Shown piece by piece: positions 23,919-63,428 of a DNA stretch of 64,000 nucleotides. The stretch lies in the NCBI RefSeq assembly GCF_947493125.1, contig NZ_CANLQB010000003.1:1-64000 (forward strand), written 5' to 3'. Source of the stretch: an uncultured Roseobacter sp. (GTDB taxonomy: Bacteria > Pseudomonadota > Alphaproteobacteria > Rhodobacterales > Rhodobacteraceae). A model generated the notes under the pieces. The model did not search any database, was not told the DNA's origin, and saw only the letters and a program-made list of their open reading frames with translations. Position numbers and translations under genes: made by a program. Every line of letters starts with the position of its first letter. Position 1 is the stretch's first letter.

Positions 23919-26219
23919 ATGGATGACCATGCTCACGCGGAGGCTTTCGCGCCACGGACCGACGGCAGCGCCACAGCTCACACAGGGTCCGCGGCGGCCG
24001 GAAAGGCTATTCCAGGAGGCCACATTCCGGGGCTCCGCGACTTGCCCGCCATCCTCTCCGCCGGGCTGATTTGCGGCCTGCTGACTGCGATGTTTGCCAT
24101 CTCTGCGGCCGCGTTGCTGTTCTCAACAGTGCTGAGCACTCATATCACCCTGGCCATCGGAATCTGCCTGTTCGGAACCATCGTGCTGAATGTCGTGATC
24201 GCGCTATCCAGCTCCTGCCCGGGGATGCTGTCGGTGACACAGGAGGTAACCGTGGTCACACTGGCGGTGATCGCAGCTTCGATCCACGGGGGCATGTTCG
24301 GCACCCACAGCGAAGCGGAGACCCTGGCGACGATCATCGTGATGATCGGGCTGGCTACCGCATTGACCGGCGCGGCACTCTTTGCGATGGGGAGTTTCCG
24401 GCTCGGCCGGCTGATCCGGTTTATACCCTATCCGGTGGTCGCAGGGTTCCTAGCCGGAATGGGCTGGTTGATCGTGGCAGGTGCGCTGGCGGTGATCTTG
24501 GGCGATCCAGTCACTGCGAAGACCCTGCCTGCGCTGGTTGACGCCGATGCCATGGCCAAATGGGTGCCTGCGGTAGCCTTCGCAGCTGTCGTGGATGTTG
24601 CGGCGCGCCGGAGCGGAAGCCCGTTTGTCTTACCGATAGCCATAGCACTGTTTCTCGCCCTGTTTCACACCGGTGTCTGGTTGTTTGATCTCTCGGCCGC
24701 GGATCTGCAGCGTGACGGCTGGCTCTTCGCGCCACCGCATGACGGGGCGATAGATCTGCCGTTTCATGGCAACCCCTTGGCTCTGGCCGACTGGACGACG
24801 ATCTGGTCAGAACTGCCAAAGATATCTGCGCTCCTGGCGATAAGCGCCGCGGCATTGCTCTTCGCTGCGAGCGGCATTGAGCTTTCCCTGCGCCGGGATA
24901 TCGACCTCGACCGAGAGCTCCGGGCCGCGGGTCTTGCAAACATGGTGGCAGGTTCCGGAGGCGGCGCCGCGGGATTCCAGGGATTGGGGCTCACGATCCT
25001 GGCACATCACTTGGGCGCAGCTTACCGCATCACCGGCCTGCTGGTCGCGGGGGTGTGTACCGCGATCCTGGTTTTCGGCGGGTCATTGCTGAGCGTCGTT
25101 CCGGTCCCGCTCTTTGGTGGCCTGCTCCTCTGGATTGGTGGTGGCCTTCTTTATCAGTGGTTGATCGGGGTCTTCGCCAGCGTATCGCGTCGCGAATATG
25201 TGGTTGTGGTGCTGATCGTTCTCCTCATGGTCACCGTCGGTTTGCTGGAAGGGATCGCCGCGGGTGTTTTCGCAGCGGCGGCGCTTTTTACCGCGGAATA
25301 CGCTCGCGTTGATGTGGTGAAATATGCAGTCAACGGAAAAACTTATACCAGCCGCACCGAACACGCCCCGGATGATCGCGCCTATCTGCGGAGACATGGA
25401 GATCAGATCTGTATCCTAAGACTGCAGGGCTTCATCTTTTTCGGCAGCGTACATCAGTTGTATCAGCAGGCCCGGGACTGCTTTGAGATATGCGGAACGG
25501 CGGGGGGCCGCTTTCTCGTGCTGGATTGCCGGGATGTGACCGGGTTTGACTCATCCGCCATTCAAGGGCTGAGCAAAATCTGCGACATCGTTCAGAAACA
25601 GGACGGTCGATTGGTCATCGTTGCTCTCAAACCCGTCATGTCCAAACGCCTCAACAAGCTACTGCTGAAAGCGGAAGCCGACCCGGCAATACTCTATTTC
25701 GACGAGGCAGATGCGGCCGTCGCATGGTGTGAAGATCGCCTGTTGCTGGACGGCACCTCTGGCCGACGCCCGGAAGCAACACCACATATTGCAGAACAGC
25801 TGGCCGCCTGCCTGAAGGATGCAGATGCCTTTGCGACCATGAAGCCGTATTTGAAAAGGATCGCGCTCAGACCGCAGGAGATGCTGATCCGCCAACAGGA
25901 TGCGGGGACAGACATTTACTTCATTGAAAAAGGTCTCATCAAGGTGCACCTCGACAGCCCTGCAACCCTTCCCGTTCATCTGCGAACACTTGGACCAGGA
26001 ACCATCGTCGGGGAAATGTCCGTCTTTCTTGAGCGGGAGCGCACCGCGTCGGCAACCGCCGAAACGGCTGCTACAGTTTGGCGCCTGAGTCAGCAGGATT
26101 TGAAGCGGATGACGCTGTTGAACCCCGCTTTGGCCGATGCGCTGAACAGGTATTTCCTGAGGACGATCGCGGAACGTCTCGATCAATCAAATCGCCTCGT
26201 CCGATCTCTTACTGATTGA
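23919..26219 (+). CDS. SulP-family anion transporter with STAS and cyclic-nucleotide-binding-like domains
   Basis: A 766-residue membrane protein. After a 40-residue soluble N-terminus come about 10-14 membrane segments (to about residue 460) of the SulP/SLC26 family. A STAS domain (about 490-600) includes DCRDVTGFDSSAIQGLSKI, and a C-terminal cNMP-binding-like domain (about 640-755) includes RQQDAGTDIYFIEKGLI and GTIVGEMSVFLERERTASATA. Substrates in this family include sulfate, bicarbonate and dicarboxylates; this one is not assignable. The last domain suggests control by a nucleotide or another small ligand. It stands alone. Confidence 0.88.
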   Translation: MDDHAHAEAFAPRTDGSATAHTGSAAAGKAIPGGHIPGLRDLPAILSAGLICGLLTAMFAISAAALLFSTVLSTHITLAIGICLFGTIVLNVVIALSSSCPGMLSVTQEVTVVTLAVIAASIHGGMFGTHSEAETLATIIVMIGLATALTGAALFAMGSFRLGRLIRFIPYPVVAGFLAGMGWLIVAGALAVILGDPVTAKTLPALVDADAMAKWVPAVAFAAVVDVAARRSGSPFVLPIAIALFLALFHTGVWLFDLSAADLQRDGWLFAPPHDGAIDLPFHGNPLALADWTTIWSELPKISALLAISAAALLFAASGIELSLRRDIDLDRELRAAGLANMVAGSGGGAAGFQGLGLTILAHHLGAAYRITGLLVAGVCTAILVFGGSLLSVVPVPLFGGLLLWIGGGLLYQWLIGVFASVSRREYVVVVLIVLLMVTVGLLEGIAAGVFAAAALFTAEYARVDVVKYAVNGKTYTSRTEHAPDDRAYLRRHGDQICILRLQGFIFFGSVHQLYQQARDCFEICGTAGGRFLVLDCRDVTGFDSSAIQGLSKICDIVQKQDGRLVIVALKPVMSKRLNKLLLKAEADPAILYFDEADAAVAWCEDRLLLDGTSGRRPEATPHIAEQLAACLKDADAFATMKPYLKRIALRPQEMLIRQQDAGTDIYFIEKGLIKVHLDSPATLPVHLRTLGPGTIVGEMSVFLERERTASATAETAATVWRLSQQDLKRMTLLNPALADALNRYFLRTIAERLDQSNRLVRSLTD

Positions 26220-50057: not shown

Positions 50058-50183
50058 GCCAAAGCGGTTCAACTTTCTGACTGGTCATCCGACACCAAAA
50101 GGGAAGTTGAGGTTATGTGTTATCCTTCCGTGTCAACAAAGGGTTGTCGTTTCGGGAGGGCATGGCGGATCGGAGGATCAGTC

Positions 50184-50816
50184 ATGGAAACACCAAACCT
50201 GCCAGCCATTCGCGCACTTCGCCCTGCATGGAACAAAGGTCGCATCGTCGGTCAGAAACGACCCCTGAAACCCAAGCATGTCTGGGCGATCCGTGTCCGC
50301 CTTGAATTGGCTGAGAACCATCGCGATCTCGCATTGTTCAACATGGCGATCGACAGCAAGTTGCGCGGGTGTGATCTAGTGAAGATGAAGGTGGTTGACG
50401 TCATGGCATCCGGCCAAATTAAGGAACGGGCGTCGGTGTTACAAAGCAAGACACAGAAACCGGTACGGTTTGAGATATCGGAAGGGACTAGATCGTCAGT
50501 TGAGAAATGGATGGAAGACGAATTGATGAACGGGTCAGAATATCTTTGGCTAGGGCGTTTTCACGAACGACTGCACATTTCGACCCGTCAATACGCCCGG
50601 ATCGTACGCGACTGGATCACTTCGATCGGCCTTGAAGCGACGGCCTATGGCACCCATTCGATGCGCCGCACCAAGGTTACGCAGATCTATAAAAAGACGG
50701 GAAATCTCCGAGCCGTGCAGCTACTGCTTGGTCACACCAAGATGGATAGCACGGTCCGATATCTCGGCGTCGAACTTGAAGACGCGTTAGCTATCGCGGA
50801 AGCCATTGAAATCTAA
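50184..50816 (+). CDS. Tyrosine recombinase
   Basis: A 210-residue site-specific recombinase; the ATG at 50184 follows GGAGG. Catalytic residues can be placed: Arg61 (KLRGCDLV), Lys near 89-92, His158 and Arg161 (THSMRRTK), His184 (LLGHTKMD) and the nucleophile Tyr193 (VRYLGVE). It has the catalytic domain but only a short N-terminus, with no full core-binding domain, as in a group of stand-alone integrases. No tRNA or attachment repeat was recognised beside it. Its presence at the end of the copper island fits mobility. Confidence 0.86.
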   Translation: METPNLPAIRALRPAWNKGRIVGQKRPLKPKHVWAIRVRLELAENHRDLALFNMAIDSKLRGCDLVKMKVVDVMASGQIKERASVLQSKTQKPVRFEISEGTRSSVEKWMEDELMNGSEYLWLGRFHERLHISTRQYARIVRDWITSIGLEATAYGTHSMRRTKVTQIYKKTGNLRAVQLLLGHTKMDSTVRYLGVELEDALAIAEAIEI

Positions 50817-50871
50817 AACCTAGGGCCGCCTGCAAGGGACGGCCCAGACCGGACCTTCGCTCCATGATCTC

Positions 50872-50910
50872 GATGCTGCGGTGCAGCCCGACAAACCGGC
50901 TGTTCGCCGC
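50872..50910. repeat. Intergenic repeat copy 3
   Basis: GATGCTGCGGTGCAGCCCG followed by ACAAACCGGCTGTTCGCCGC. It shares its first 13 bases exactly with the copy at 44957. It lies between the recombinase and the decayed transglutaminase gene. A hairpin, GGGCCG/CGGCCC, at 50823-50846 may end the recombinase transcript. The remaining bases to 51002 show nothing. Confidence 0.45.
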
Positions 50911-51002
50911 AGATGCAAAATCGAGGTAAGTTCGAACTCACAGTTCGCAGGAAATGGCGGACATGTAGCCCGACCGAAAGACCGGCCGTTTACCACCGGG
51001 TC

Positions 51003-51784
51003 TCAAAGTCCGGAAATCCTTCCCGAGACGTTTTTCTCCGTCGGGGAGATCCAGCCAAGGCTCGCCGTCAACGGGACCTCTGCCGCATCCATGCCGACGC
51101 CGATCCGCACGATCTGCGACGCCTCCGCCATGCCCTCACGCTTCGCCAGCGTCTACGCCCCGCATGTCGACCCCCGGGATTTTCATGCGGTCGCCGAGGA
51201 ACACTTGGACGGCATTTGACACCTGATCGACACGACGGGCATGGCGGAGGCGCGCGCAAGGGTGATGAGCACATGCGCAAAGTCCTGACAGACGCCCTAC
51301 CGTTGAACGAAGGTATCGATGACAGTCGTCTGCGCCGTGCTGGACCCCCGGACATATTCGAAGCGCCGAAATATCCGGTCCCGTATCCCAGCGATGCACT
51401 GCCCACGTTGCAAGTGACCGAACTCGGCGGCGACGAAGCTCCGGAATTCATCCGAGTGGCAGTAGCGTGCCGGCATCAGTACTGGACGACGTCCCCAGGA
51501 AGAAGATGCGGCGGCACCTTGTCCAGCGCAGCAGTATCCAGAGACAGCCGGTCAATTTCGAGCTTTGCGGAGTAGACGCACTTAACGCCCTAGGACGTTT
51601 GCAGCAGGGTTCTGGCGCCAAGTCCGGTCTCCGCGGCGGTCTCTGCGACATGGTCAGGCGCGCCGATATCGAAAGTTTCCGACAGGACCTTCTGGTCCGC
51701 AAAGCGCGGGGCGCGCACCTGAAGGGCCAGATTGGCTGGTTGGGCGATGTCATAGGCAAGCCGTACGTCGATATCGACAATCAT
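51003..51784 (-). pseudogene. Transglutaminase-like protein, decayed and internally inverted
   Basis: On this strand the pieces of a bacterial transglutaminase-family protein can be followed in order: the N-terminal beta domain (MIVDIDVRLAYDIAQPANL), a stop near 51580, LSLDTAALDKVPPHLLPGDVV, a stop and frameshift near 51480, MPARYCHSDEFRSFVAAEFG, and the active-site region with GVCQDFAHVLITLARASAMP preceded by an in-frame TAG. The next part, SVYAPHVDPRDFHAVAEEHL, lies on the opposite strand, and GMAEASQIVRIGVGMDAAEV ends the gene on this strand again. A TGA interrupts the inverted part. It overlaps the DUF4112 start by four bases, so it was the last gene of that operon. It cannot make a full protein. 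Confidence 0.88.
51120..51252. repeat. 16-bp inverted repeats bounding an inverted 101-bp segment
   Basis: CGCCTCCGCCATGCCC (51120-51135) and its exact reverse complement (51237-51252) flank 51136-51236. The flanked bases encode the missing central part of the transglutaminase-like gene, but on the opposite strand. Turning the segment round restores the order ARASAMP-SRFASVYAPHV ... HLIDTT-GMAEASQIV with no break at either joint. The repeats are natural coding sequence of the gene (ASAMP and GMAEA). Confidence 0.88.
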
Positions 51785-52149
51785 GAGCTATCCTTCGCAG
51801 TCTCTGAAGCGTCTGCCAATTCCTTGCGCAGCAGCGCGACATTTCGATTGTTCGCCTTGAACACGAGATCGAACGCGTCTCCGAGAAGAGGCACCGCGCC
51901 GATAACAAGGTCCAGCCCGGCGTTTGCCGCCATACGAACAATCGTGCGCTTGCGTGCGCCAAGCCTGTAGCCTTGATAGATGAGATAGGCCGATGGCCCG
52001 AGCGATGCGAGGTCACCTGCACCCGGAATGAGCCCGAGAAGAGAGTCCCATCCAAACCGAATGGGTGTGCCCGGTATCCGGAACCGACTGTCCAGTAGCG
52101 TGGAGAGGCGGTCGAGCTTATCGATCTCGGAACCAGGCACGCCGCTCAC
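51781..52149 (-). CDS. DUF4112 protein
   Basis: A 122-residue protein of the DUF4112 family. LDSRFRIPGTPIRFGWDSLLGLIPGAGDLAS is the family core (a hydrophobic, glycine- and proline-rich stretch), and GAVPLLGDAFDLVFKANNRN is the second conserved block. It probably associates with the inner membrane. Its function is unknown. It overlaps the YqaE gene upstream by four bases and the transglutaminase remnant downstream by four. Confidence 0.88.
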   Translation of the reverse strand: MSGVPGSEIDKLDRLSTLLDSRFRIPGTPIRFGWDSLLGLIPGAGDLASLGPSAYLIYQGYRLGARKRTIVRMAANAGLDLVIGAVPLLGDAFDLVFKANNRNVALLRKELADASETAKDSS

Positions 52150-52304
52150 TTGCGCGCGACGATGTAGACCGCATGCACAAGCCCCGGGATATACCCAAGC
52201 AGTGTCAGCAGGATGTTGAGCCAGAAGTGTTTCCCAAACCCTACCTGCAAGAAGACGCCAAGCGGCGGAATGATGACGGAGAGGATGATGCGGATAAGGT
52301 CCAT
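52146..52304 (-). CDS. YqaE/Pmp3-family membrane peptide
   Basis: A 52-residue membrane peptide with two hydrophobic helices. IIPPLGVFLQVGFGKHFWLN and LLGYIPGLVHAVYIVARK match the YqaE/Pmp3 family, which responds to osmotic and membrane stress. The start at 52304 heads the operon, and its stop overlaps the DUF4112 start (ATGA). Confidence 0.9.
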   Translation of the reverse strand: MDLIRIILSVIIPPLGVFLQVGFGKHFWLNILLTLLGYIPGLVHAVYIVARK

Positions 52305-52406
52305 GAGCGCTCTCTTCTGAGATTTTTTTCGGGGAGTCCCGCAGCGTATCGCAGGTTGCGCCGAAATTGGCGAGGTCAGGCGTCTTAATCTGTGTTAACT
52401 TCTGGT

Positions 52407-53191
52407 ATGTCCGAAGAATATCAAAGCTGCCTTGTCAGTCGACTGTCCCGTTTCGTGTCCCTCACCGATCACGAATGTGCATTCATTGCAGAGATGGAAA
52501 AGGATGAACACCCGCGCAAGAAAGGCCGGTCGGTTGTCAGCGTCGGGGATCGAACCGAGGGGATCATGGTCCTCAAGACAGGGTGGGCGGTGGTAAAAGC
52601 GGACAGCTCGGACGGGCGCAGTCAAATCCTGCGCGTGTATTTGCCGGGCGAGGTCATGGGACTGGCCGAAATCGGATCGTCACGCGCCAATCATCGCATC
52701 ACGATGCAGACGGACGGTGTGATCTGCCCATTCCCTAGGAGCGGTTTGGCACCGCTCTACAGCGAATATCCTCGTCTCGGTGCCTTGCTGACGGGGGTTG
52801 GCAGTCTTGATCAGATCGCGCTGCGTCATCACGCCAGCAGTCTTGGGTGATGGATGCGTCCGGCAAGCTGAAGTTCTGGTTGCTGCAACTCCGGTCGCGG
52901 TTGGAGGTGGCCAATGTCGGTCTTGGCAACCGGTTTCAGGTGCCCTTCAGCCAGGTCGAGATCGGACAGGCGGTCGGGCTGACGTCGATCTATGTCAACA
53001 AACTGCTGCGCCGGTTTGTCGAAAACGGAGACATTGAGATCGAGCGCCCCTACGTCCGCCTGCTCAAGCGGGACGAATGGGAAAACGATTGCGAATTCGT
53101 CAACGCCTTCGTTGACATGGACACGTCCTGGTTCCCACCTGCAATCGAGACGGAGACGACCGGCTCGGCCGAACTGGTCAAGCCGGCCTGA
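52407..53191 (+). pseudogene. Crp/Fnr-family regulator split by a frameshift
   Basis: The first frame (52407-52850) gives the cNMP-binding-like half, from MSEEYQSCLVSRLSRFVSL to DQIALRHHASSLG, then stops at TGA 52848. The second (52847-53191) gives the dimer helix and DNA-binding half, MDASGKLKFWLLQLRSRL to PFSQVEIGQAVGLTSIYVNK and the end. Homologues read straight through (RHHAS-x-LGRMDASGKL-like), so one base was lost near 52845. The halves overlap as GTGATGG, so the second could still be made by reinitiation. In intact relatives this is a stress-type regulator of the Crp/Fnr family. Confidence 0.78.
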
Positions 53192-53194
53192 GGG

Positions 53195-53692
53195 TCATGC
53201 AGCCGCATCCTTGTTGATCCCGCTTGTCGCAAGCTCGGTCATGGCACGGTCGCCATCATAGGATGCATCAAGGCATTTCTTGAGCGCTGCCACATCCTCA
53301 TCCAGCTCCAGCCGGTCAGCGAAGGCGGCAAGACAGCCGTATCCCGCAATGGCGTAGTGGACCAGCCGCTGGTATTGCGTGATGATCATCGCGTCTTTGG
53401 TCGCGTCCTCACCAAATGTCTCTTCGATCGCATGGGCTCGTGCTTCTTTCACGAGGCCTTCCATGCCTTTGCAGTGCGCGCCGCTCGGATTTTCGTCGTG
53501 ACCTTCGGAAATTTTCTTGAGGGCGGTGATGCCGTCCTGAATACCGTCCGCTCCGGCGTTGAGAGCGTCGGACAGGTCCTTGTCGCTTGCCGCCTGCGCC
53601 ATCTCCTTGGTGACATCCAGCGCCTGTACGTTGGCGCTGTGGATATCCTTGAGCTGTTCAAGATAGAGGTCTTCCAGAGTGTCGATGCTCAT
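53195..53692 (-). CDS. DUF892 (YciE/YciF-like) ferritin-fold protein
   Basis: A 165-residue four-helix protein of the DUF892/YciF family. TLEDLYLEQLKDIHSANVQAL is the first helix of the family, and AHAIEETFGEDATKDAMIIT and YAIAGYGCLAAFADRL are further conserved helices with candidate metal ligands. Members are general stress proteins of ferritin-like fold. It ends against the Crp/Fnr remnant and starts facing a cluster of envelope stress genes. Confidence 0.88.
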   Translation of the reverse strand: MSIDTLEDLYLEQLKDIHSANVQALDVTKEMAQAASDKDLSDALNAGADGIQDGITALKKISEGHDENPSGAHCKGMEGLVKEARAHAIEETFGEDATKDAMIITQYQRLVHYAIAGYGCLAAFADRLELDEDVAALKKCLDASYDGDRAMTELATSGINKDAAA

Positions 53693-53886
53693 GTTCGATC
53701 CTTTCGAGGTGAGCTTTCACGCTAACTGGAATCGGCCACCGCAACAGAGACGATCTGGCTGGAGCGTCCTTCGAATGGGCAAATGCTAAACCAGATTAGC
53801 GTCTGCGCCCCGCATCACAAACCTCAACCGCCTAAGCTGCTCACAGCGGGGCTGACCACAGTCACGCCCCATCAGAGGAGCCCCTA

Positions 53887-53955
53887 ATGCATAACGTCTT
53901 TTACCTCATCGGACTGATCGTCGTCGTTTTGGCTGTCATCAGTTTTCTGTTCTGA
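53887..53955 (+). CDS. 22-residue membrane peptide
   Basis: ATG 53887 follows AGGAG and encodes MHNVFYLIGLIVVVLAVISF-LF, a single hydrophobic helix, ending at TGA 53953. Similar one-helix peptides sit in front of stress operons in related bacteria. It is 19 bases upstream of the next gene and too short for automatic gene finding. Confidence 0.6.
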   Translation: MHNVFYLIGLIVVVLAVISFLF

Positions 53956-53974
53956 ACCTGAAGTGGAGAGATTC

Positions 53975-54457
53975 ATGTCGACACAAAAAACTCCGGACCA
54001 AACGTCTGCCCATTCCGACGCATCGCAGGCCAAGCAGAAAGCAGGCGAAATGACGGAGAACGCGAAATCCGCCGCCCGTGACGTCGCGCAAGATGCCGCC
54101 TCCGCTGCAAAGGATCATGCGGAGACCGCCAAGTCATCGGTTGCCGACGAGATGTCGGGTGTTGCGTCAGCGCTTCGCACCGCAGCCGAAGAGATGCGCA
54201 GCGGCTCTCCGCAAGAACGCACCTTCGGTCAAATCGCCGAAGGTCTGGCCGATGCGTCCGAGGCGATGCGCAACAAGGATCTGAGTGAGATGGTGCAGGA
54301 TGTCAGCGCCTTCGCCCGCAAGAACCCATTGGTGTTTCTCGGTGGCGCTGCCCTGATCGGCTTTGCGGCCACTAGGTTCGCCAAAGCGTCCAACACCCGT
54401 GATCCGCAGGCAATCCTCACCGCGCGTGGAACCACACCGCACGGAGAGATCTCATGA
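53975..54457 (+). CDS. Alanine-rich stress protein with C-terminal membrane helix
   Basis: A 160-residue protein; the ATG at 53975 follows GGAGAG. The N-terminal half is a low-complexity helix rich in Ala, Lys and Asp (AAKDHAETAKSSVADEMSGV), like LEA-type or nutrient-stress proteins, and the C-terminal half ends with a membrane helix, NPLVFLGGAALIGFAATRF. It overlaps the DUF1469 gene by four bases and is the first of a three-gene operon with it and the DUF3618 gene. Confidence 0.8.
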   Translation: MSTQKTPDQTSAHSDASQAKQKAGEMTENAKSAARDVAQDAASAAKDHAETAKSSVADEMSGVASALRTAAEEMRSGSPQERTFGQIAEGLADASEAMRNKDLSEMVQDVSAFARKNPLVFLGGAALIGFAATRFAKASNTRDPQAILTARGTTPHGEIS

Positions 54458-54855
54458 GCGACAACACGACAAACAAGAGCGCGGGTCATCTTCTGTCTGA
54501 TGTAATGAGCAACGTCGGTGGCCTGGTGCGCAATGAGGTCGACCTCGCCCGCGCCGAAATCAGCGAGAACGTCACCAAGGCGGGTGTCGCCCTTGGCCTG
54601 ATCGCCGGTGCAGCCATCATCGCCCTGGTCGCTCTGAATGTTCTGGCCGCCGCACTCGTGGCGGCGCTCACCGATATTGGTCTGGAAGCCGGTTGGTCAT
54701 CGCTGATCGTTGGCACCGCACTTGGCATCATTGCCTTTGCTTTGATCAGCAAGGGCGTGAACGACCTCAAACTCTCAAGCCTCGCACCGACGCGGACAGT
54801 GAAGAACGTCCAACGCGATGCCGCAGCCGTGAAGGACGCCTACGATGACAAATGA
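54454..54855 (+). CDS. DUF1469 (phage-holin-like) membrane protein
   Basis: A 133-residue protein with an amphipathic N-terminal helix (LVRNEVDLARAEISENVTKA) and two membrane helices (GVALGLIAGAAIIALVALNV, SLIVGTALGIIAFALISK). This is the Phage_holin_3_6/DUF1469 type that regularly pairs with DUF3618 in stress operons; despite the name it is chromosomal and not a lysis protein. It overlaps both neighbours. Confidence 0.9.
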   Translation: MSDNTTNKSAGHLLSDVMSNVGGLVRNEVDLARAEISENVTKAGVALGLIAGAAIIALVALNVLAAALVAALTDIGLEAGWSSLIVGTALGIIAFALISKGVNDLKLSSLAPTRTVKNVQRDAAAVKDAYDDK

Positions 54856-55963
54856 GACCCGCAGCCCGAAAGAAATCGAACGCGAGATCGAAGATCAGCG
54901 GTCCGACCTGACCTCCAATCTGGAGGACCTGCAGGACAAGTTTTCACTCGACACCATCGTTCGCCAGATCAGCGATCAGTTTCGCGAACACGGTGGCGAC
55001 ATGGGCCGCTCGATCTCCAATCAGGTCAAAGCCAACCCGATCCCGCTGGCGCTCACCGGCATCGGTCTGGCCTGGCTGATATTTGGAGATTCCCAGCAGC
55101 CGCAGCCACGTCACCGCGCTTCCGATGATTTAGACGATGACCGCTACAGTTCGGCAGAAGGCGAGTTTCACCGCAATCGTGCCGAGCGCGGAATGCCTTA
55201 CACGCCGCCGAAAACGCTTAGTACGCGATCCTCTTCGGAGCCCTCCTGGGCGCGGGATCACGATGACGAAGACAGCCCTTCGGTGGCAAACCGTCTGTCC
55301 AGCAGTGCCGAAGCCGTGAAGGACAAGGCGGCGGATGGCGCACAATCGGTGAAGGGCGGCCTCGCAAGCGCTGGCTCGGCGCTCGGCGATGCCGCGTCTT
55401 CCGCTAAATCGACGGCGGGAACTGCGACGCAATCCGTAAAGCAGGGTCTGGCCACGGTGAGACACCGTATCGCGGAGGGCACCGAGACGCTAACCGAAGA
55501 AGGCCGCAAGCGTGTGATCGCCGCACGTCAGAAAGCCGTGGAAATGCGCCGCTCCGCGGCGCGGTCAATGCACCAGGGAACGGATGCGGCGGTTGACTTT
55601 TATGATCAGCAGCCGTTGGTCGTTGGCGCGCTCGCACTCGCCGTCGGTGCCGCGTTGGGCGGGGCTTTGCCGCGCACAAAGGCCGAAGACGATCTGATGG
55701 GCGCGCAGAGTGACAGCCTCTATGACGAAGCCGAGCGCATCTTGGAGGAGGAAAAAGCGAAGGCGCTGTCCATTGCGGGCTCAGTGAAAGATGAAGTCAA
55801 GGACATCGCAGCAGAGACCAAGGCCGACATGGACAGTGGCGCGCCCGGCGATAAATCCGCTGTCGAGGCGATTGGTGACAAGGCCAAAAACGCGGCAGAA
55901 CGGGTTGCGAAGACGGCCAAATCCGAAGCGCAGGACAAGAATCTGGGCAAGCCCAAGTCCTGA
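54845..55963 (+). CDS. DUF3618 membrane-associated protein
   Basis: A 372-residue protein. The N-terminal DUF3618 domain is clear (SPKEIEREIEDQRSDLTSNL), followed by a membrane helix near NPIPLALTGIGLAWLIFG. The rest is long, repetitive and rich in Ala, Ser, Lys and Glu (SAEAVKDKAADGAQSVKGGL), with a second helix, QPLVVGALALAVGAALGGAL, and an acidic helical tail. It is longer than the usual 120-250 residues. It is the third gene of the operon and probably supports the envelope under osmotic stress. Confidence 0.88.
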   Translation: MTNETRSPKEIEREIEDQRSDLTSNLEDLQDKFSLDTIVRQISDQFREHGGDMGRSISNQVKANPIPLALTGIGLAWLIFGDSQQPQPRHRASDDLDDDRYSSAEGEFHRNRAERGMPYTPPKTLSTRSSSEPSWARDHDDEDSPSVANRLSSSAEAVKDKAADGAQSVKGGLASAGSALGDAASSAKSTAGTATQSVKQGLATVRHRIAEGTETLTEEGRKRVIAARQKAVEMRRSAARSMHQGTDAAVDFYDQQPLVVGALALAVGAALGGALPRTKAEDDLMGAQSDSLYDEAERILEEEKAKALSIAGSVKDEVKDIAAETKADMDSGAPGDKSAVEAIGDKAKNAAERVAKTAKSEAQDKNLGKPKS

Positions 55964-56027
55964 TAAATCCGGGAGAGGCCATTCGGCCCTTTCCTGCCTT
56001 CTCATCTCCCAAACCTGAGGTTATGTC

Positions 56028-56975
56028 ATGCCACGCGGCCGCTCTGCCGAGACCCCGACCGACATCACGGCCCGCGGCTGGAAGGATATTGCCTTTCGGC
56101 TCAAGGACGAGATCTTCGCCGACCGGGTCGGGCTGATTGCGGCCGGAATTGCCTTTTACGGGTTGTTGGCCCTTTTCCCCGCCATAACCGCGCTTATTGC
56201 CATCAGTGGGTTGATGGTCGAACCGAGCCAGATCGTCGATCAGCTGGAACGCCTTTCAGGCCTAATGCCGTAAGACGTGATCGCAATTGTCACGAGGCAG
56301 GCCACCGCCGTGGCCGGGTCCCGCGAAGGCGGCCTCGGCCTTGCGGCACTCGCCGGCGTTCTGATCGCGCTTTATTCAGCCTCGAAAGGTATGGCGAGCC
56401 TCATCGAAGGCATCAACTTCGCTTACGACGAGGATGAAGATCGCGGGTTCATAAAGCTCAAACTTGTCACATTTGCCTTGACGCTTTTTCTGATGGTCGG
56501 CCTGCTGGTCGCCTTGATGGCAACCCTTGGCTTGCCCGCGGTTCTGGCACTTCTGAAATTTGGTCCGGTGTTCGAGGTCTTCATGACGGTCGGCCTTTGG
56601 ATCGGGCTATTCTGTCTGACCGTCTTTGGCCTTTCCGTGCTCTACCGCTATGCGCCGTCTCGCGATGAACCGGAATGGAAATGGGGCTCGCCCGGCGCAA
56701 TCGTCGCCTGCCTCATCTGGGTCATCGCCTCGGCCGGCCTTGCGTTCTACGTTGGGAATTTCGGGTCTTACAACGAAAGCTTCGGGACGCTGGCCGGGGT
56801 GGTCGTTCTGCTGATGTGGTTCTGGATATCCGCCTTCATTATCCTGCTGGGCGCGGAGCTGAATGCCGAGATGGAGGCGCAAACGCGCGCTGACACGACA
56901 CAAGGCCCCGATGAACCGATGGGATTGCGCCAGGCAGTGAAGGCCGATACTTCGGGCGAGGCCACAAAGTCATGA
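56028..56975 (+). pseudogene. YihY/BrkB-family membrane protein with an in-frame stop
   Basis: Frame is kept over 316 codons except for a TAA at codon 82 (56271-56273), between LERLSGLMP and DVIAIVTRQATAV. Relatives have one continuous protein with a residue such as Gln here, so a single C-to-T change would explain it. A GTG at 56277 could restart the C-terminal 232 residues. The sequence has the family membrane segments (IAFYGLLALFPAITALIAIS, LALYSASKGMASLIEGINFAYDE-like). It is probably inactive unless read through. Confidence 0.82.
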
Positions 56976-56991
56976 TGCTGCAATCCGCCGC

Positions 56992-57969
56992 ATGCTGAAC
57001 TGGGTTTTCTGGGGCCTCGCTCTTATCATTATCATCACCACGCTCCTGCCGCTGACCAGCAGCGCGACCTGGTGGGTCCGCATGTGGGATTTTCCACGCC
57101 TGCACATCGCCGGAGTGGCACTGCTAACCCTGCTCGCTTGCCTGCCCTTCGCGATGTCCCAGAAGCCTCTTCTGGCAGCCGCTTTGATTGCTGTGATGGT
57201 CTATCAGGGTATGCAGATCTTCCCCTACACACCACTGGCGCGTACGGAAGTCGACATCGCAGGTGCACCGTCTCCGGCGGAGGAGATGTCACTCCTGTCG
57301 CTGAACGTGCTGATGGAAAACACCCGGCATCATGATCTGATCGCAATTCTAGAACGCGAAGACCCGGATGTCTTACTTCTGATGGAAACCGATGACACGT
57401 GGCACGCAGCCTTGTCACAGACGCTCGCCCGCTACCCAACCATCAAGTCACACATCGCCAATTACCACTATGGACTGATCTTTGCCACGCGGCTGGAAAC
57501 GTCCGGCGTCGAGCTGCTGTGGCCCTTGGCCGATGATACGCCCGCCGTCAGGGCGGTGATGACGTCCCCAAGCGGTGCCGCATTCAACTTCATCGGTCTG
57601 CATCCGCGGCCCCCCGTGTTCGGCAACACGACGGCCGTGCGCGACAGGCAGATCAAGGAGGTCGCCTTGATGACCAAATCGTCCGAACGGCCGACTGTCG
57701 TGATGGGGGATTTCAACGATGTTGCCTGGTCCTGGACCACGAAGCGTTTCAAACGATACTGCGATCTTCTGGAGCCACGCGTGGGACGCGGCATGATGTC
57801 CAGCTTCCACGCGGAGTATCCGTTCATGCGCCTACCGATCGATCAGATGTTCATGACAAAGGACGTCGGGCTGGTGTCGTTCCGCAGGCTAGAGCCTTTC
57901 GGGTCCGATCACTTCCCGATGGCGGCCACCGCTTTCATCCTCAATCAAAGGCCGAACGATGGACAGTAA
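56992..57969 (+). CDS. Membrane-anchored endonuclease/exonuclease/phosphatase family protein
   Basis: A 325-residue protein with three N-terminal membrane helices (about 1-85) and a periplasm-facing or cytoplasmic EEP-fold domain. Motifs are SLNVLMENTRHHDLIAILER, the metal-site GDFNDVAWS (Asp, Asn) and the end GSDHFPMAAT. EEP proteins cleave phosphodiesters or phosphomonoesters. The usual early E-motif reads LLLMETDDTW. The substrate is unknown. It starts 16 bases after the BrkB gene and overlaps the next gene by 11 bases. Confidence 0.84.
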   Translation: MLNWVFWGLALIIIITTLLPLTSSATWWVRMWDFPRLHIAGVALLTLLACLPFAMSQKPLLAAALIAVMVYQGMQIFPYTPLARTEVDIAGAPSPAEEMSLLSLNVLMENTRHHDLIAILEREDPDVLLLMETDDTWHAALSQTLARYPTIKSHIANYHYGLIFATRLETSGVELLWPLADDTPAVRAVMTSPSGAAFNFIGLHPRPPVFGNTTAVRDRQIKEVALMTKSSERPTVVMGDFNDVAWSWTTKRFKRYCDLLEPRVGRGMMSSFHAEYPFMRLPIDQMFMTKDVGLVSFRRLEPFGSDHFPMAATAFILNQRPNDGQ

Positions 57970-59092
57970 GCCGGCCAAGCCGTCGGCCAAGGCACAGCCA
58001 CGGCGTCGGCCTGCTGCGTTGCGGAACCGCTTGGAGGTCCCGCTCATCGGCATTTTCGGTTTACTGCTGTTGCAGGCTCTGGTCTGGGCCAGCGATTTTC
58101 TGATACCGGTTACTGCCGCATGTCTTGGCTATTTCGTCCTGAACCGACCCCGTCGTATTCTGTCCAGGCTCGGGATCGCGCCGATTGTCTCGGCCGCTTT
58201 GTTCACTGCCTTTCTGACAGCCCTCATCATACTCTTGCTTAGGCAACTCAGCGCACCGGCGGCGCAGTTCATTGAGGACCTGCCGTCACTTATGGATGAA
58301 ATCAAGCAAAAGCTCTCCGCAGCGGGTGGCACCTTGGAAGCCATCAATGACGCGACCGTTGCGGCCGAGGAGATCATCGAAGATCAAAACGCCGAAACAG
58401 TGGAGGTCGAGGTAGTGTCCAACACAGGCATCGCCACGACTCTCTTCAGCATGGCGCCCGGTTTCCTCAGCCGGATTCTCTTCGCGCTGATCCTGTTGTT
58501 CTTCCTGATTGCATCGGGGGACATATTCCTGACCAAGACCGTGCAAAGCTTCGAGCGGTTTGCCGACAAGCGGCGCGCCGTGGAGGTCGTGCATTCGATC
58601 GAGGATCGTCTGGGATACTATCTGGGCGGCATTGCGTTCATCAACGCGGGCCTTGGGCTTGCCGTGGCCATTGCGACGCATCTCTGGGGTTTGCCGAACG
58701 CGATCATCTTCGGCTTCATGGCCTTCGGGCTCAATTTCGTACCGTTCCTGGGCGGGCTGATGGGCGCGGCCATTGCGGCCGCCGTCGCATTCGTCACTCT
58801 TGACGGGACGTTGGCCGCAGCAGGTGTATTTGCGACTTACATCGCGCTAACTTTCATCGAAGGTCAGTTCATCACACCGCTTATAATTTCGCGCAGAATG
58901 CGGTTGAACACTCCGGTCGTTTTCCTATTTGTCGCCTTCTTCGCTTGGATCTGGTCGATCATCGGAATGATCGTCGCTCTGCCCATCTTGATCGTGCTCA
59001 AGATCGCCTGTGATGAGACCAAATCACCGCAGACCCTCGCCGGGTTTCTGGGGGATCTGGACGACACCTCGGGGAGCGACGTCCGGGACTAG
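57959..59092 (+). CDS. AI-2E family transporter (YdiK-type)
   Basis: A 377-residue membrane protein of the AI-2E superfamily with about eight helices. Conserved segments are FGFMAFGLNFVPFLGGLMGA and FIEGQFITPLIISRRMRLN. The middle has an extra, charged loop (ATVAAEEIIEDQNAETVEVEV). Family members export or exchange small molecules; some are Na+/H+ antiporters, and a true autoinducer role is only one possibility. It overlaps the EEP gene, indicating co-expression. Confidence 0.86.
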   Translation: MDSKPAKPSAKAQPRRRPAALRNRLEVPLIGIFGLLLLQALVWASDFLIPVTAACLGYFVLNRPRRILSRLGIAPIVSAALFTAFLTALIILLLRQLSAPAAQFIEDLPSLMDEIKQKLSAAGGTLEAINDATVAAEEIIEDQNAETVEVEVVSNTGIATTLFSMAPGFLSRILFALILLFFLIASGDIFLTKTVQSFERFADKRRAVEVVHSIEDRLGYYLGGIAFINAGLGLAVAIATHLWGLPNAIIFGFMAFGLNFVPFLGGLMGAAIAAAVAFVTLDGTLAAAGVFATYIALTFIEGQFITPLIISRRMRLNTPVVFLFVAFFAWIWSIIGMIVALPILIVLKIACDETKSPQTLAGFLGDLDDTSGSDVRD

Positions 59093-59130
59093 ATGGCTGG
59101 CGGCGGCCCGCACCGCCAGCCGATCTCCGC

Positions 59131-59265
59131 TCAGGTCTTCCTGCGAACAAGGCGCGCCACGAATATCAGCATAAAGGCACCAGCAGCGGCAACGATCAAC
59201 TGACCGATCCACCCGCCAAGCGTCGCGCCGATGATCAGTGATCCGATCCATCCTACTCCAGTCAT
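59131..59265 (-). CDS. Small membrane protein, YeaQ/YmgE-like
   Basis: A 44-residue peptide with a ribosome site AAGGA before its ATG at 59265. The sequence (GWIGSLIIGATLGGWIGQLI then VAAAGAFMLIFVARLVRRKT) has the Gly-rich double helix of the GlsB/YeaQ/YmgE stress membrane proteins but is about half their length. It faces the AI-2E gene and is close to the PRC-barrel gene's terminator. Confidence 0.65.
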   Translation of the reverse strand: MTGVGWIGSLIIGATLGGWIGQLIVAAAGAFMLIFVARLVRRKT

Positions 59266-59342
59266 TCTTTAGGTCCTTCTTCGAGAGTTGAGGAGAGGTG
59301 TTATGCAAGCGGCATCTCGGCGCTCACGCTGTACTTATTTAC

Positions 59343-59378
59343 AAAAAAAAATGCCGCCGCCGGAGGGACACCGGCGGC
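59343..59378 (-). terminator. Rho-independent terminator of the PRC-barrel gene
   Basis: On the leftward strand, GCCGCCGG (59378-59371) and CCGGCGGC (59363-59356) form an 8-bp GC stem with a 7-base loop, followed after a short GC stretch by nine T (59351-59343). It lies 59 bases past the stop of the gene at 59437-60510 and is a typical intrinsic terminator. Confidence 0.88.
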
Positions 59379-59436
59379 AGCGAACTCGTTACCTACACCA
59401 TCAAGATACGTTCCGGTGCCCGCATCAATCTGACAC

Positions 59437-60510
59437 TCAGTCGAGACCGAGTTGCTCGGCCAGGCGCAGACCGGGGTCGAGCACGCGCACTTCTGTCTCG
59501 CGATACTCAGGCATGTTCTCCAGCTTGGACTGCGTGAACTCGGGCAGGATCAGCTCGTCTTTGCGCAGGATCAGTTTCTCGACCGGCACTGCGACTTCAT
59601 TTTCGCCCATGCCAAGGAAACCGCCAACGCCGATGATGGCCACTAGCGTTTGACCGCGTATACCGATGAAATCGACCTCGCCCACGTCTTCACCGGTTTC
59701 AGTGGCAACGCTCCGCCCGATCAAGTCTTCGGCCTTGCGGTCAAAGATCGGCAGCACCTTTACCGTCTCCTGATAGCGGGCGCGGTCCTCGTCAGCCATG
59801 TTCCCGGCCGCATCCGCTTTAAAATCCTCCATGACAACGCGCGCCTGCATCTGTTCAACCTCGACATTCGCTGCGCCGCCATCGACGACGTTGACCTCTG
59901 GCTCCTCGCTGGTGACGGACACATTGGCGCTCTCGCCTTGCTCCAGATTCACTTGCGCGTCGGCCTGCGTCACGTCGATCCGGGCCTCCTGCGCATCAGA
60001 GATATTGACCTGCGCCTCGCCTTGCTGGAATTCCACGCGCGGCTGCGCTTCCTGGATGGTGATCTTCGGCTCCGGGCGAATGAATCGTACGACAGGTTCG
60101 GGCTGATCAAGGTCAATTATTGGCTCACCGGTCTCAACATCCACTTCAGGCTTGGGTACCATCACGGTGACAACAGGCTCGGGGATCACGACCGTGATCT
60201 GCGGCTGGGCCTGTTCAACGGTGATGATCGGGGCCTGTTGGCGAACCTTCACGGTGGGTTCCGGCACCACCACGGTGATCTCTGGTTGCGGTTGCTCGAC
60301 CGTGACCACGGGCTGGCCTTGTGTCACTTCAAAGTTGGGGTCTGGCACGGTCACATTGACGGTTGCATCTTCCTGCTTGACGACCACCTGTCCGACTTCA
60401 GCGGGAACGACGGTCGCGTCGGTTTCGGTCGTCGACTGGGCGAGAGCGCCCGTTGCGGCCAACGCGCCGATGGCGGCAGTGCCGAGGAGTGTTTTCAGTG
60501 TCGGGCTCAT
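59437..60510 (-). CDS. Exported PRC-barrel protein with a repetitive beta-strand region
   Basis: A 357-residue protein; the start at 60510 gives a signal peptide ending in GALAQS (an in-frame start at 60582 is less likely). Residues about 45-235 are short repeats of eight to ten residues of the form P-x-V-x-V (QPEITVVVPEPTVKV, QPQITVVIPEPVVTV), predicting stacked beta strands. Residues about 245-325 are a PRC-barrel (DLIGRSVATETGEDVGEVDF, NEVAVPVEKLIL). It probably acts at the cell envelope. It diverges from the second PRC-barrel gene and ends at a strong terminator. Confidence 0.84.
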   Translation of the reverse strand: MSPTLKTLLGTAAIGALAATGALAQSTTETDATVVPAEVGQVVVKQEDATVNVTVPDPNFEVTQGQPVVTVEQPQPEITVVVPEPTVKVRQQAPIITVEQAQPQITVVIPEPVVTVMVPKPEVDVETGEPIIDLDQPEPVVRFIRPEPKITIQEAQPRVEFQQGEAQVNISDAQEARIDVTQADAQVNLEQGESANVSVTSEEPEVNVVDGGAANVEVEQMQARVVMEDFKADAAGNMADEDRARYQETVKVLPIFDRKAEDLIGRSVATETGEDVGEVDFIGIRGQTLVAIIGVGGFLGMGENEVAVPVEKLILRKDELILPEFTQSKLENMPEYRETEVRVLDPGLRLAEQLGLD

Positions 60511-60947
60511 ATAGTTTCCTTCGCATGACCGGGATCGAGCACTGCCCGGAGGCGTGCGCTCAAATCGTGTGACCTCGGACAAAGTTGATTTCCGGATTGG
60601 CTCGAGCGCCCCATTTACGACGCGCCTTTGTCTTACCGCCGGATGCCTGAACCGACAGAAATGCCAGCCCTTGAAGCTGTCATAGAACTAGCAGTTTCTG
60701 CCGTGATGAGGTGGCCCGAGGCACTAATCCCTGACAAGTTTTCCGACTTTCATGCCCCCGATCCGACGTCGGTGCCTGTTGATCAAGGCAGCCCGAAGCG
60801 GCCGGTGGAACAGAAACCACCGAAGCGGGCATCTTAAATACTGTTCCAGTTTAATGCTTGGGCATTTCGCCTTGCGCGAAGGATGGCCACGGAGCGCCTG
60901 AGAGCGCAATTGTCTGGATACACGAAGAAAATATTGGAGACGTCAGA
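60511..60947. other. Divergent gap between two PRC-barrel genes
   Basis: No gene is supported here. At 60833-60856 it contains CTTAAAT-A-CTGT-TCC-AGTTTA, a sequence with a near copy at 62186-62208; both lie 90-160 bases upstream of rightward stress-type genes. Confidence 0.45.
60833..60856 (+). promoter_or_regulatory. Shared upstream motif, copy 1
   Basis: CTTAAAT-A-CTGT-TCC-AGTTTA matches CTTAAAT-C-CTGT-CCT-AGTTTA at 62186-62208 at 18 of 21 positions. It stands about 92 bases before the PRC-barrel gene at 60948. It may be a binding site or alternative sigma-factor promoter shared by stress genes. A weaker relative, CTTAATCTGTGTTAACTT, lies before the Crp/Fnr remnant at 52407. Confidence 0.4.
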
Positions 60948-61367
60948 ATGAAAAAACTTTCCGTAACAGCCCTGATCGCCGTGATCGCCACAGGCCCGGC
61001 TCTTGCCGAAGCCCACATGGACACCGCGAACATGATCCGGACGCGCGACATCACCGGCGGCGACATCTACACGCTCAATGGCCCGATGGATGAGGATACC
61101 TGGGGCAACTGGGAAGCTGAGGGCGTCGGTCCCGACTGGAATGATATCGGGGAAATCGAAGACGTCATTCTCGACCGCGACGGCCAGATGATTGGTGTTG
61201 TCGCTGAAGTCGGCGGCTTTCTCGACATCGGCGACAAGCACGTGTTCGTCCCCGTGGATGACATCCGCCTTACGCCGGTGGACGACAAAACCTATGTGAT
61301 CGTCACCCGAAAGACCGAAGAGCAACTCGAAGAGATGGACTCGGTCGACGAAGCATGGTGGAACTGA
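60948..61367 (+). CDS. Exported PRC-barrel protein
   Basis: A 139-residue protein; the start at 60948 follows GGAGA and gives a signal peptide ending in ALAEAH. One PRC-barrel domain (about 35-125) includes TLNGPMDEDTWGNWEAEG, DIGEIEDVILDRDGQMIGVV and HVFVPVDDIRLTPVD. PRC-barrel proteins of this exported type are common in stress loci, and their ligands are unknown. It is followed by a strong hairpin. Confidence 0.86.
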   Translation: MKKLSVTALIAVIATGPALAEAHMDTANMIRTRDITGGDIYTLNGPMDEDTWGNWEAEGVGPDWNDIGEIEDVILDRDGQMIGVVAEVGGFLDIGDKHVFVPVDDIRLTPVDDKTYVIVTRKTEEQLEEMDSVDEAWWN

Positions 61368-61389
61368 CCTAAAGGTCTGTAACCCAAGC

Positions 61390-61412
61390 GAAGTGGCCCG
61401 CCGGGCCACTTC
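61390..61412 (+). terminator. Hairpin after the PRC-barrel gene
   Basis: GAAGTGGCCC (61390-61399) and GGGCCACTTC (61403-61412) form a perfect 10-bp stem with a 3-base loop, 22 bases after the stop. Only a weak T run (CGTCTC) follows, but the stem is strong enough to end transcription. Confidence 0.7.
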
Positions 61413-61448
61413 CGTCTCACCCATCCGCGGATACCATGGTCAAACGTT

Positions 61449-62093
61449 GTGCTTCACGAGACGTCCACACCAAAAGTCAGTGACCAACCACTGCTCATGA
61501 TCGCATTGGGCTGGGCCGCCATTCTCGGCTGTGCCGTTTTCAGCATATCGATCCTCATTGCCGATTTTGTTGTTCCAGACCACGATTGGATCGCCGACAC
61601 GATCAGCGACCTTGGCGCGGGCCGGTACGAGTTCATCGTGGACATCGGCATCTACGCGTTTTCCGGATCGCTGATTTGCACCGCCTTGCTGTCTGCTCAT
61701 GTGCATATGGGCGGGTGGAAGTGGAGCGTCGGCATCGTGGGCCTGGCCCTGCTCGGCTTGCTGGTGTTCCTGATTGGCGCCCGCAACGAATATGGTGATC
61801 GTGACTCGGACGGTGTCGTGATCCACATCTATCTGGTCTATGGCCTTGGCGCGATCATGGCGGCGGTGCCATGGCTGATGTCCCAGGGGGCCCGTCGAGC
61901 GGGCGGGCGCTACGGGGCGATCCTTGTCGCAATATCGCTGATTTGGGTTGTATCGGCCCCGGTCTTCTTCCTTCTGCCGGATTCTGTGGATGGTCTCTAT
62001 GAACGCTATCTCGGTGTGATCGCCTTTGCCTTGGTGATCACGCTTGCTCGGCTGTTCATCAAGCGTGGACAGATGCTTCATGGGGCGCGTTAG
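61449..62093 (+). CDS. DUF998 membrane protein
   Basis: A 214-residue membrane protein with six helices of the DUF998 family. The first helix, ALGWAAILGCAVFSISILIADF, and HDWIADTISDLGAGRYEF after it are the conserved opening. GTG 61449 is the frame's start, but no ribosome site was seen, and ATG 61497 is possible. Its function is unknown. Confidence 0.78.
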   Translation: MLHETSTPKVSDQPLLMIALGWAAILGCAVFSISILIADFVVPDHDWIADTISDLGAGRYEFIVDIGIYAFSGSLICTALLSAHVHMGGWKWSVGIVGLALLGLLVFLIGARNEYGDRDSDGVVIHIYLVYGLGAIMAAVPWLMSQGARRAGGRYGAILVAISLIWVVSAPVFFLLPDSVDGLYERYLGVIAFALVITLARLFIKRGQMLHGAR

Positions 62094-62185
62094 GCGAATG
62101 TCTGGCCCCGCGCATTGACCCGCGCCCGTTGTCCCTGCCAGCCATGGGCTCGGGCCGAAAGGCGGACACCAGCGTCGACTTGCCG

Positions 62186-62208
62186 CTTAAATCCTGTCCT
62201 AGTTTAGG
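62186..62208 (+). promoter_or_regulatory. Shared upstream motif, copy 2
   Basis: CTTAAAT-C-CTGT-CCT-AGTTTA, near-identical to the copy at 60833, about 138 bases before the CsbD gene at 62346. Nothing else was found in the 252-base gap 62094-62345. Confidence 0.4.
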
Positions 62209-62345
62209 TCTCCGGCTTTTTCCCCGGCACGCAGGGTGGGCAAACCCGGTCATTTGCGTGAAGCCTTTAGATCTAAGGCCACAACACGCTCCGGATTATC
62301 GATCCGAGCTTGCCGTTGTGGCGCAAAAACCAGCTGGAGATAGAT

Positions 62346-62543
62346 ATGAATTGGGATCAGATTCAAGGTAAATGGAACCAAATGACCGGCAACATCAAGG
62401 CACAGTGGGGCGAGCTGACGGATGACGAGATCGCCGAAGTCAATGGCGAGCGGGAAGCGCTCGAAGGCAAGATCCAGGCGAAATACGGAAAATCCAAAGA
62501 AGAAGCCAAGCAGGAAGTCGATGCGTTTCTGAGCAAACACTGA
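62346..62543 (+). CDS. CsbD-family stress protein
   Basis: A 65-residue, highly charged helical protein of the CsbD family. NWDQIQGKWNQMTGNIKAQW is the signature opening, and REALEGKIQAKYGKSKEEAK the second helix. A GGAGA site precedes the ATG at 62346. CsbD proteins rise under general stress; their molecular action is unknown. A hairpin follows. Confidence 0.92.
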   Translation: MNWDQIQGKWNQMTGNIKAQWGELTDDEIAEVNGEREALEGKIQAKYGKSKEEAKQEVDAFLSKH

Positions 62544-62550
62544 CGAGTTC

Positions 62551-62581
62551 GGCGAGACGCCAAAACCAGTGGTGTCTCGCC
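62551..62581 (+). terminator. Hairpin after csbD
   Basis: GGCGAGACGCCA (62551-62562) pairs with TGGTGTCTCGCC (62570-62581), a 12-bp stem with one G-U pair and a 7-base loop, eight bases after the CsbD stop. No long T run follows. Confidence 0.6.
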
Positions 62582-62612
62582 AAACCTGCAATCACCGACC
62601 ATTGAAAAGAAA

Positions 62613-63140
62613 GTGACCGAAATGCTCTTCGAGCCAGACGTTCTAGATGTGGTCGCCCGAGGAACGATCCTTGCAATATTGGCGCTCCTTTGGGTGATCG
62701 TCGCGGTCAGGATAACCGGGCTGCGCGCTTTCTCCAAGATGACGGCCTTCGACTTTGTGGGCACCGTCGCAATCGGCTCATTGCTGGCTGGCGCGAGCCA
62801 GGCAACCGAGTGGGCCGCATTCTTCCAGGCCCTATTTTCGATTGCAGCGCTTCTCGCCGTTCAGGTTGTTGTCGCCAAGCTCAGGCAGTCATCGTCGACA
62901 TTCATGGCGGCCATTCAAAACTGTCCCTTGCTTCTGATGCGAGAAGGCGAAATCATTCAAGCCGCGCTGCACGCAAGTCGCGTGTCAGAGCAAGACCTGC
63001 TGGCCAAGCTCCGAGAGGCCAACGTTCTCGATTTTTCCGAGGTGCGCGCCGTGGTCCTAGAGACAACTGGCGACATTTCGGTCTTGCACGGTCAGGCGGT
63101 TGAGAAACGGCTCCTTCGCGATGTAACTGGCGTTGGCTGA
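62613..63140 (+). CDS. DUF421 (YetF-like) membrane protein
   Basis: A 175-residue protein (ATG 62622 is an alternative start). Three membrane helices in the first 90 residues are followed by the conserved cytoplasmic domain with GLRAFSKMTAFDFVGTVAIGS before it and LLMREGEIIQAALHASRVSE, LREANVLDFSEVRAVVLETTGDISVL in it. This is the YetF/DUF421 family, linked to spore and stress envelopes in other bacteria. The next 288 bases show no gene. Confidence 0.87.
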   Translation: MTEMLFEPDVLDVVARGTILAILALLWVIVAVRITGLRAFSKMTAFDFVGTVAIGSLLAGASQATEWAAFFQALFSIAALLAVQVVVAKLRQSSSTFMAAIQNCPLLLMREGEIIQAALHASRVSEQDLLAKLREANVLDFSEVRAVVLETTGDISVLHGQAVEKRLLRDVTGVG

Positions 63141-63428
63141 CGGCCTCAGTATCGCTGGACCGACCCAGATTGGGCGGCGCCTCTAAAGGAGGCACTGGAC
63201 CGCTGCGTGCCATCGGTCACATTGCATTCGTAGCGGACATGTGTCGGTGCAACGCGCTGAGCTTAGGGGCTACCAGGGCTAAGAGGTCTGCTAAGCGGAC
63301 CAAAGCCGCCTTATGCCGGCTTGATTTGAATGTCGGCTTTCCCATTGATTATTGCATTGCGGATCTCTGACGAGAATGAGCCGAACCTGTTTCCAGGATT
63401 GGCTCGTCCTTGGTTCTAACACAAGGTG

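Follow-up and report, generated by a model that had tools for sequence, protein, structure and literature searches.

A probably fixed inversion of 101 bp flanked by 16-bp inverted repeats in a decayed transglutaminase-like gene of Roseobacter

Results

A transglutaminase-like gene lies on the minus strand of the window (the whole 64,000-nt stretch analysed), with its ATG at 51784 and its C-terminal part reaching down to about 51022 (Table 1). Inside it, positions 51120-51252, made up of two 16-bp arms and the 101 bp between them, read in the gene sense on the plus strand, while both ends of the gene are on the minus strand. The arms are 100% complementary, and the window has no other perfect 16-nt inverted repeat whose spacer is 300 nt or shorter. 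Simulated windows (first-order Markov, n=40) held on average 0.0 perfect inverted repeats of 16 nt and 0.1 of 14 nt, and the repeat thus exceeds the chance expectation for the window. When folded as a single strand, the window segment pairs its arms (z -3.39; 1/200 shuffles as good), and the corresponding segment of the intact paralogue described below folds more weakly (z -0.98; 30/200 shuffles as good).

Table 1. Features of the transglutaminase-like gene in the window
Feature	Position	Strand	Remarks
Decayed transglutaminase-like gene	51022..51784 (C-terminal end approximate)	-	Intact homologues 260 aa, Pfam Transglut_core
N-terminal flank of pseudogene	51253..51784	-	TAGs 51590-51592 and 51297-51299, frame change near 51478; presumably holds the catalytic Cys region
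Inverted-repeat arm, 16 nt	51237..51252	.
Inverted spacer, 101 nt	51136..51236	gene sense on +	TGA at 51217-51219; presumably holds the catalytic His and Asp region
Inverted-repeat arm, 16 nt	51120..51135	.	Exact reverse complement of 51237..51252
C-terminal flank of pseudogene	51022..51119	-	0/98 mismatches vs G002

The window's genome (G000) also carries an intact second copy of the gene, a paralogue on contig C15 in a block of approximately 8 kb that is 76% identical to the window block. This paralogue and the homologue of Roseobacter sp. H9 (G003) each have an uninterrupted 260-aa frame, and both match Transglut_core (PF01841) of the transglutaminase-like superfamily, at E 1.8e-19 and 6.8e-20, respectively. 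The stop-free 65-aa piece of the window gene gave no Pfam match at E 0.01 when searched alone, and the family name therefore rests on the intact homologues. Compared with them, the window gene is a broken relative in which the part that we take to carry the catalytic His and Asp is inverted.

The preliminary description of this DNA had proposed, without naming a strand, that 101 bp of a transglutaminase-like gene are inverted between 16-bp repeats, and had called for a comparison with relatives in which the gene is intact. That comparison, made piece by piece, upheld the proposal. In blastn, positions 50850-51850 aligned to the paralogue (L011/L015) and to G003 (L003/L012) in three pieces each, with the two flanks on the same strand, approximately 51120-51251 on the opposite strand and the change of strand within the arms; identity of the inverted segment was 77.9% to the paralogue and 81.1% to G003. 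With the intact paralogue protein as query, residues 1-104 and 102-258 were found on the minus strand of the window and residues 173-224 on the plus strand. The plus-strand piece 51022-51216, searched against 59 related genomes, gave two matches, one on each strand, in the paralogue, in G003 and in G031. The distance from arm to arm is 45 codons in both the window and the paralogue, and the two align without internal gaps; the inversion is conservative, with no net gain or loss of bases. An alternative in which the plus-strand reading (SAMPSRFASVYAPHVDPRDFHAVAEEHLDGI) represents the normal orientation, with no inversion, was refuted, as the relatives place the flanks on the other strand.

The additional lesions that had been claimed (a TAG, a TGA and a frameshift) are all real. 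The minus-strand TAG at 51590-51592 shares the frame of the ATG and is common to the window and to uncultured Roseobacter sp. isolate 269 (NZ_CANKYM010000002.1; G002), and the G002 copy has further stops and length changes of its own. The TAG at 51297-51299, also on the minus strand, stands in the frame of the homologues after the frame change near 51478 and is private to the window; the TGA lies on the plus strand inside the inverted segment. In the N-terminal flank, the window and G002 share 69 changes that none of five outgroups has, and these are distributed over codon positions 3/1/2 as 41/19/9, the pattern of selection for protein. The 49 differences between the window and G002 are distributed as 19/12/18, the pattern without such selection, indicating that the gene was under constraint for much of the ancestral branch of the pair but no longer after the copies split. 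With their disabling lesions and lost codon constraint, the window copy and the G002 copy are both dead genes. A new plus-strand gene created by the flip (open frame 50881-51219, longer in G002) was also considered and rejected, because the arms and segment differ at 17/133 positions between the copies, with codon positions 3/1/2 at 7/5/5.

The split-strand pattern was present in two of the 19 genus genomes searched, namely the window's genome and G002. In G002, the paralogue protein query matched with residues 173-224 on the strand opposite to that of residues 1-133 and 144-258; its DNA aligns colinearly with the window through the whole gene, inverted segment included, with 91.9% identity over 50850-51850. 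Both assemblies with the flipped allele thus have the same orientation. A contig scan gave 12 loci, among them the G002 copy (L067, inverted) and the copy of uncultured Roseobacter sp. isolate 2-944-J (G010; L060), in which the segment is deleted. By translation, the remaining 10 loci have the segment in normal order; nine are stop-free, and L064 has two stops in the frame read. In a family sample of 295 genomes, 45 had a match at E 1e-30 or better, giving 48 match rows, of which two represent the window gene itself; each of the other 46 spans residues 173-224 in one match, one of these non-inverted rows carrying a TAG. No inverted homologue beyond the window/G002 pair was found in the three surveys (19 genus genomes, 12 loci and 295 family genomes). 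Among plasmid records, 77 matched, none of them reaching 80% query coverage at a single place; among the 40 matches listed, 37 align in the neighbouring YqaE/Pmp3 stretch and three (H15, H29 and H30) align over approximately 130 nt in the arms and segment.

Around the gene, the block 50836-63312 is 97-99% identical to contig C2 of G002 and was probably shared recently; the window gene at 23919-26219 has only a 70% match in G002. The edge of this block is 20 bp past the stop of the integrase gene. The unit carrying this small tyrosine recombinase (PF00589; 50114-50900) occurs in several copies with 76-91% identity in G005, G003 and G010, and G002 has one copy. The terminal part of the unit, approximately 65 bp (50836-50900), is also found by itself as short repeats. 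A Crp/Fnr-type regulator at 52392-53191 is split into two frames (cNMP_binding and HTH_Crp_2), and the matching place holds one 267-aa frame in each of L016, L017, L018 and L019. A one-base gap relative to G002 falls within 52685-52984, in the region of this regulator.

Divergence between the window and G002 is uneven across the gene. Differences number 8/186 in 50836-51021, 0/98 in 51022-51119, 17/133 in the arms and segment and 48/532 in the N-terminal flank; beyond the gene they amount to 0-4% per 300 bp, and third-position divergence in eight genes of these neighbouring stretches is 1.5-4.8%. The diverged stretch begins with a difference at 51135, the final base of one arm, and from there to 51784, about the start of the gene, divergence is approximately 10%. 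Simple decay does not explain this step, since neutral decay over the same time would not be expected to run two- to sixfold above third-position divergence unless the third positions are themselves constrained. A recombination tract with another flipped allele, one predating the remainder of the shared block, would account for the step, in which case the flip would be older still.

The arms were said to derive from codons of the gene itself, those for ASAMP and GMAEA, and the intact homologues bear this out: in intact genes the left arm corresponds to the codons of ASAIPA and the right arm to those of TGMAEA. In the five nearest intact homologues, the best 16-mer complementarity between the arms is 14, 14, 13, 12 and 12 of 16, indicating that the repeat was present, imperfectly, before the flip; it existed because the conserved motifs ASA-I/M-PA and TGMAEA are encoded by almost reverse-complementary codons. 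At least 12/16 was reached in 16 of 39 homologues, or 15 of 38 without one duplicate (L059 and L073 share sequence), counts that are not independent because the homologues are related; this survey left out L064 (Litoreibacter, decayed). As a control, 25 of 2340 random placements with the same spacing in the same genes reached that level. The G002 arms have two mismatches in 14, and one base of a window arm differs from G002 and the five outgroups and pairs with the other arm, as homogenisation of the arms by template switching would produce, though a single base may be due to chance. In the 4.83-Mb genome, the exact 16-mer occurs in two places only, the arms themselves, with four one-mismatch sites elsewhere. 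Allowing up to three mismatches, the window contains six arm matches, including both arms, against 2.05 expected, and 0/100 shuffles reached six.

A second rearrangement was found at the same place. The G010 gene (L060:3001-3669) is 223 codons long and contains ...LARASAMP-VASQIVRIG...; its net loss, 37 codons (111 bp) in frame, runs from just after the left arm into the right arm. In G005, only residues 159-245 of the gene were matched, in normal order. Among the six close loci in five genus genomes (the window, C15, G002, G003, G005 and G010), two are full-length and uninterrupted (C15 and G003).

Discussion

Our preferred explanation, which we consider highly likely, is that inverted repeats of about 15-16 bp gave rise to one conservative inversion in the ancestor of the window and G002 copies, in a dying or dead gene. 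The preliminary description had likewise favoured decay, with a one-time inversion in a dying gene, over a switch. This reading draws support from the flip common to two species, from a shared TAG accompanied by private lesions, from the loss of codon constraint after the split, from an exact repeat that is not dispersed in the genome and from the lack of any inverted homologue outside the pair in the genomes surveyed. No sign of the segment flipping back was found in the assembled sequences or in the relatives.

Other origins of the pattern have to be weighed against it. Inverted repeats can mislead assemblers, but the arms are only 16 bp long, and an assembly error, or a state missing from relatives, had been named as what would overturn the claim; a second Roseobacter species, G002, is in the same state at 8% divergence, so an artefact is extremely unlikely. 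Two independent flips of the same repeat, one per lineage, would accord with a stretch that is about 10% diverged (65/665) while the whole shared block is 97-99% identical, and recurrent, reversible spacer inversions are among the cases described in a yeast study (PMC8604942). However, one ancestor explains both the shared TAG and the shared flip, and the C-terminal flank is identical over 98 bp; two flips therefore seem to us improbable.

The other rival is an active or recently active intragenic inverton, in which a site-specific recombinase would flip the segment and turn the protein on or off, with the tyrosine recombinase at 50184-50816 as the candidate. The locus has the outward appearance of such an element: perfect 16-bp arms stand 101 bp apart within a gene, a Phage_integrase protein (PF00589) is encoded approximately 0.3 kb from the segment, an arm-like match just upstream of the integrase (50153-50169) is 94% complementary over 17 nt to 51124-51140, and the window is enriched in arm matches. 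Intragenic invertons, reportedly described by Chanin et al. in 2024 as inverted repeats in a gene with the intervening DNA reversed, are similar in both respects; unlike them, the present locus offers no evidence of reversibility, no dedicated recombinase that we could find and no orientation with an intact product. Two of the six arm matches are the arms, and the integrase-adjacent match has three mismatches to the 16-mer and was not counted as a site. The genome holds no other exact copy of the arm, the G002 arms are imperfect, and 46/46 other family rows are not inverted. G002 is flipped, yet colinearity ends at 50836 and its integrase unit is on another contig; with the unit not beside the G002 flipped copy and the exact arm without a further copy, the integrase was set aside as the invertase. 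The N-terminal flank, which lies beyond the segment, carries stops and frame changes that disrupt the gene whichever way the segment points, in both the window and G002, so that no functional product was found for either state. Invertons have been defined as DNA flanked by inverted repeats of 10-40 nt and flipped by invertases (PMC11892184), and intragenic examples are cited in a review (PMC11868660); the perfect 16-nt arms, 101 nt apart, fall within that range of repeat size. As judged from the sequences compared, a switch is very unlikely.

A single old inversion could have arisen if the two arms paired during replication or repair, either through polymerase template switching at a fork or through reciprocal strand exchange, and the spacer would then have been flipped with the number of bases unchanged. 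The flip would date to the common ancestor of the window and G002 copies, about when the gene lost its function, and it may have killed the gene or come just after. Both copies would have decayed thereafter, with the intact second copy staying in the window's genome. The strand-exchange mechanism, the length of the arms at the time of the flip and the occurrence of one event rather than two are all inferred. In the yeast cases described by Abraham and Hazkani-Covo in 2021 (PMC8604942), template switching between short inverted repeats in coding DNA homogenises the arms and inverts the spacers. The likeness lies in arms of 10-16 bp in coding sequence, an inverted spacer and arms that are perfect or becoming perfect. 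The differences are that the yeast cases, with arms longer than 9 bp, have spacers of only 2-5 bp, that the present case is from a bacterium, that the window gene is dead and that its mechanism is inferred only. The 101-bp spacer, far above the 2-5 bp of that study, counts against the template-switch explanation.

Given the 111-bp loss at this site in a third species, G010, the repeat may act as a weak hotspot of rearrangement. The near reverse-complementary codons of the two motifs might then constitute a built-in repeat around the His/Asp block that is recurrently rearranged, inverted in the window and G002 and deleted in G010. We regard this as a tentative and rather doubtful idea; if true, the coding of the motif pair would set the gene's own rearrangement hotspot.

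The event itself is of a known kind and of modest interest. It provides a clean natural case of a bacterial inversion of approximately 100 bp between codon-derived 16-bp repeats, for which there are both intact relatives and a second species in the inverted state. It also illustrates that a textbook-looking invertible element, with perfect short repeats, inside a gene and near an integrase, can be a fixed relic, a status revealed by comparison with relatives and not by inspecting one sequence.
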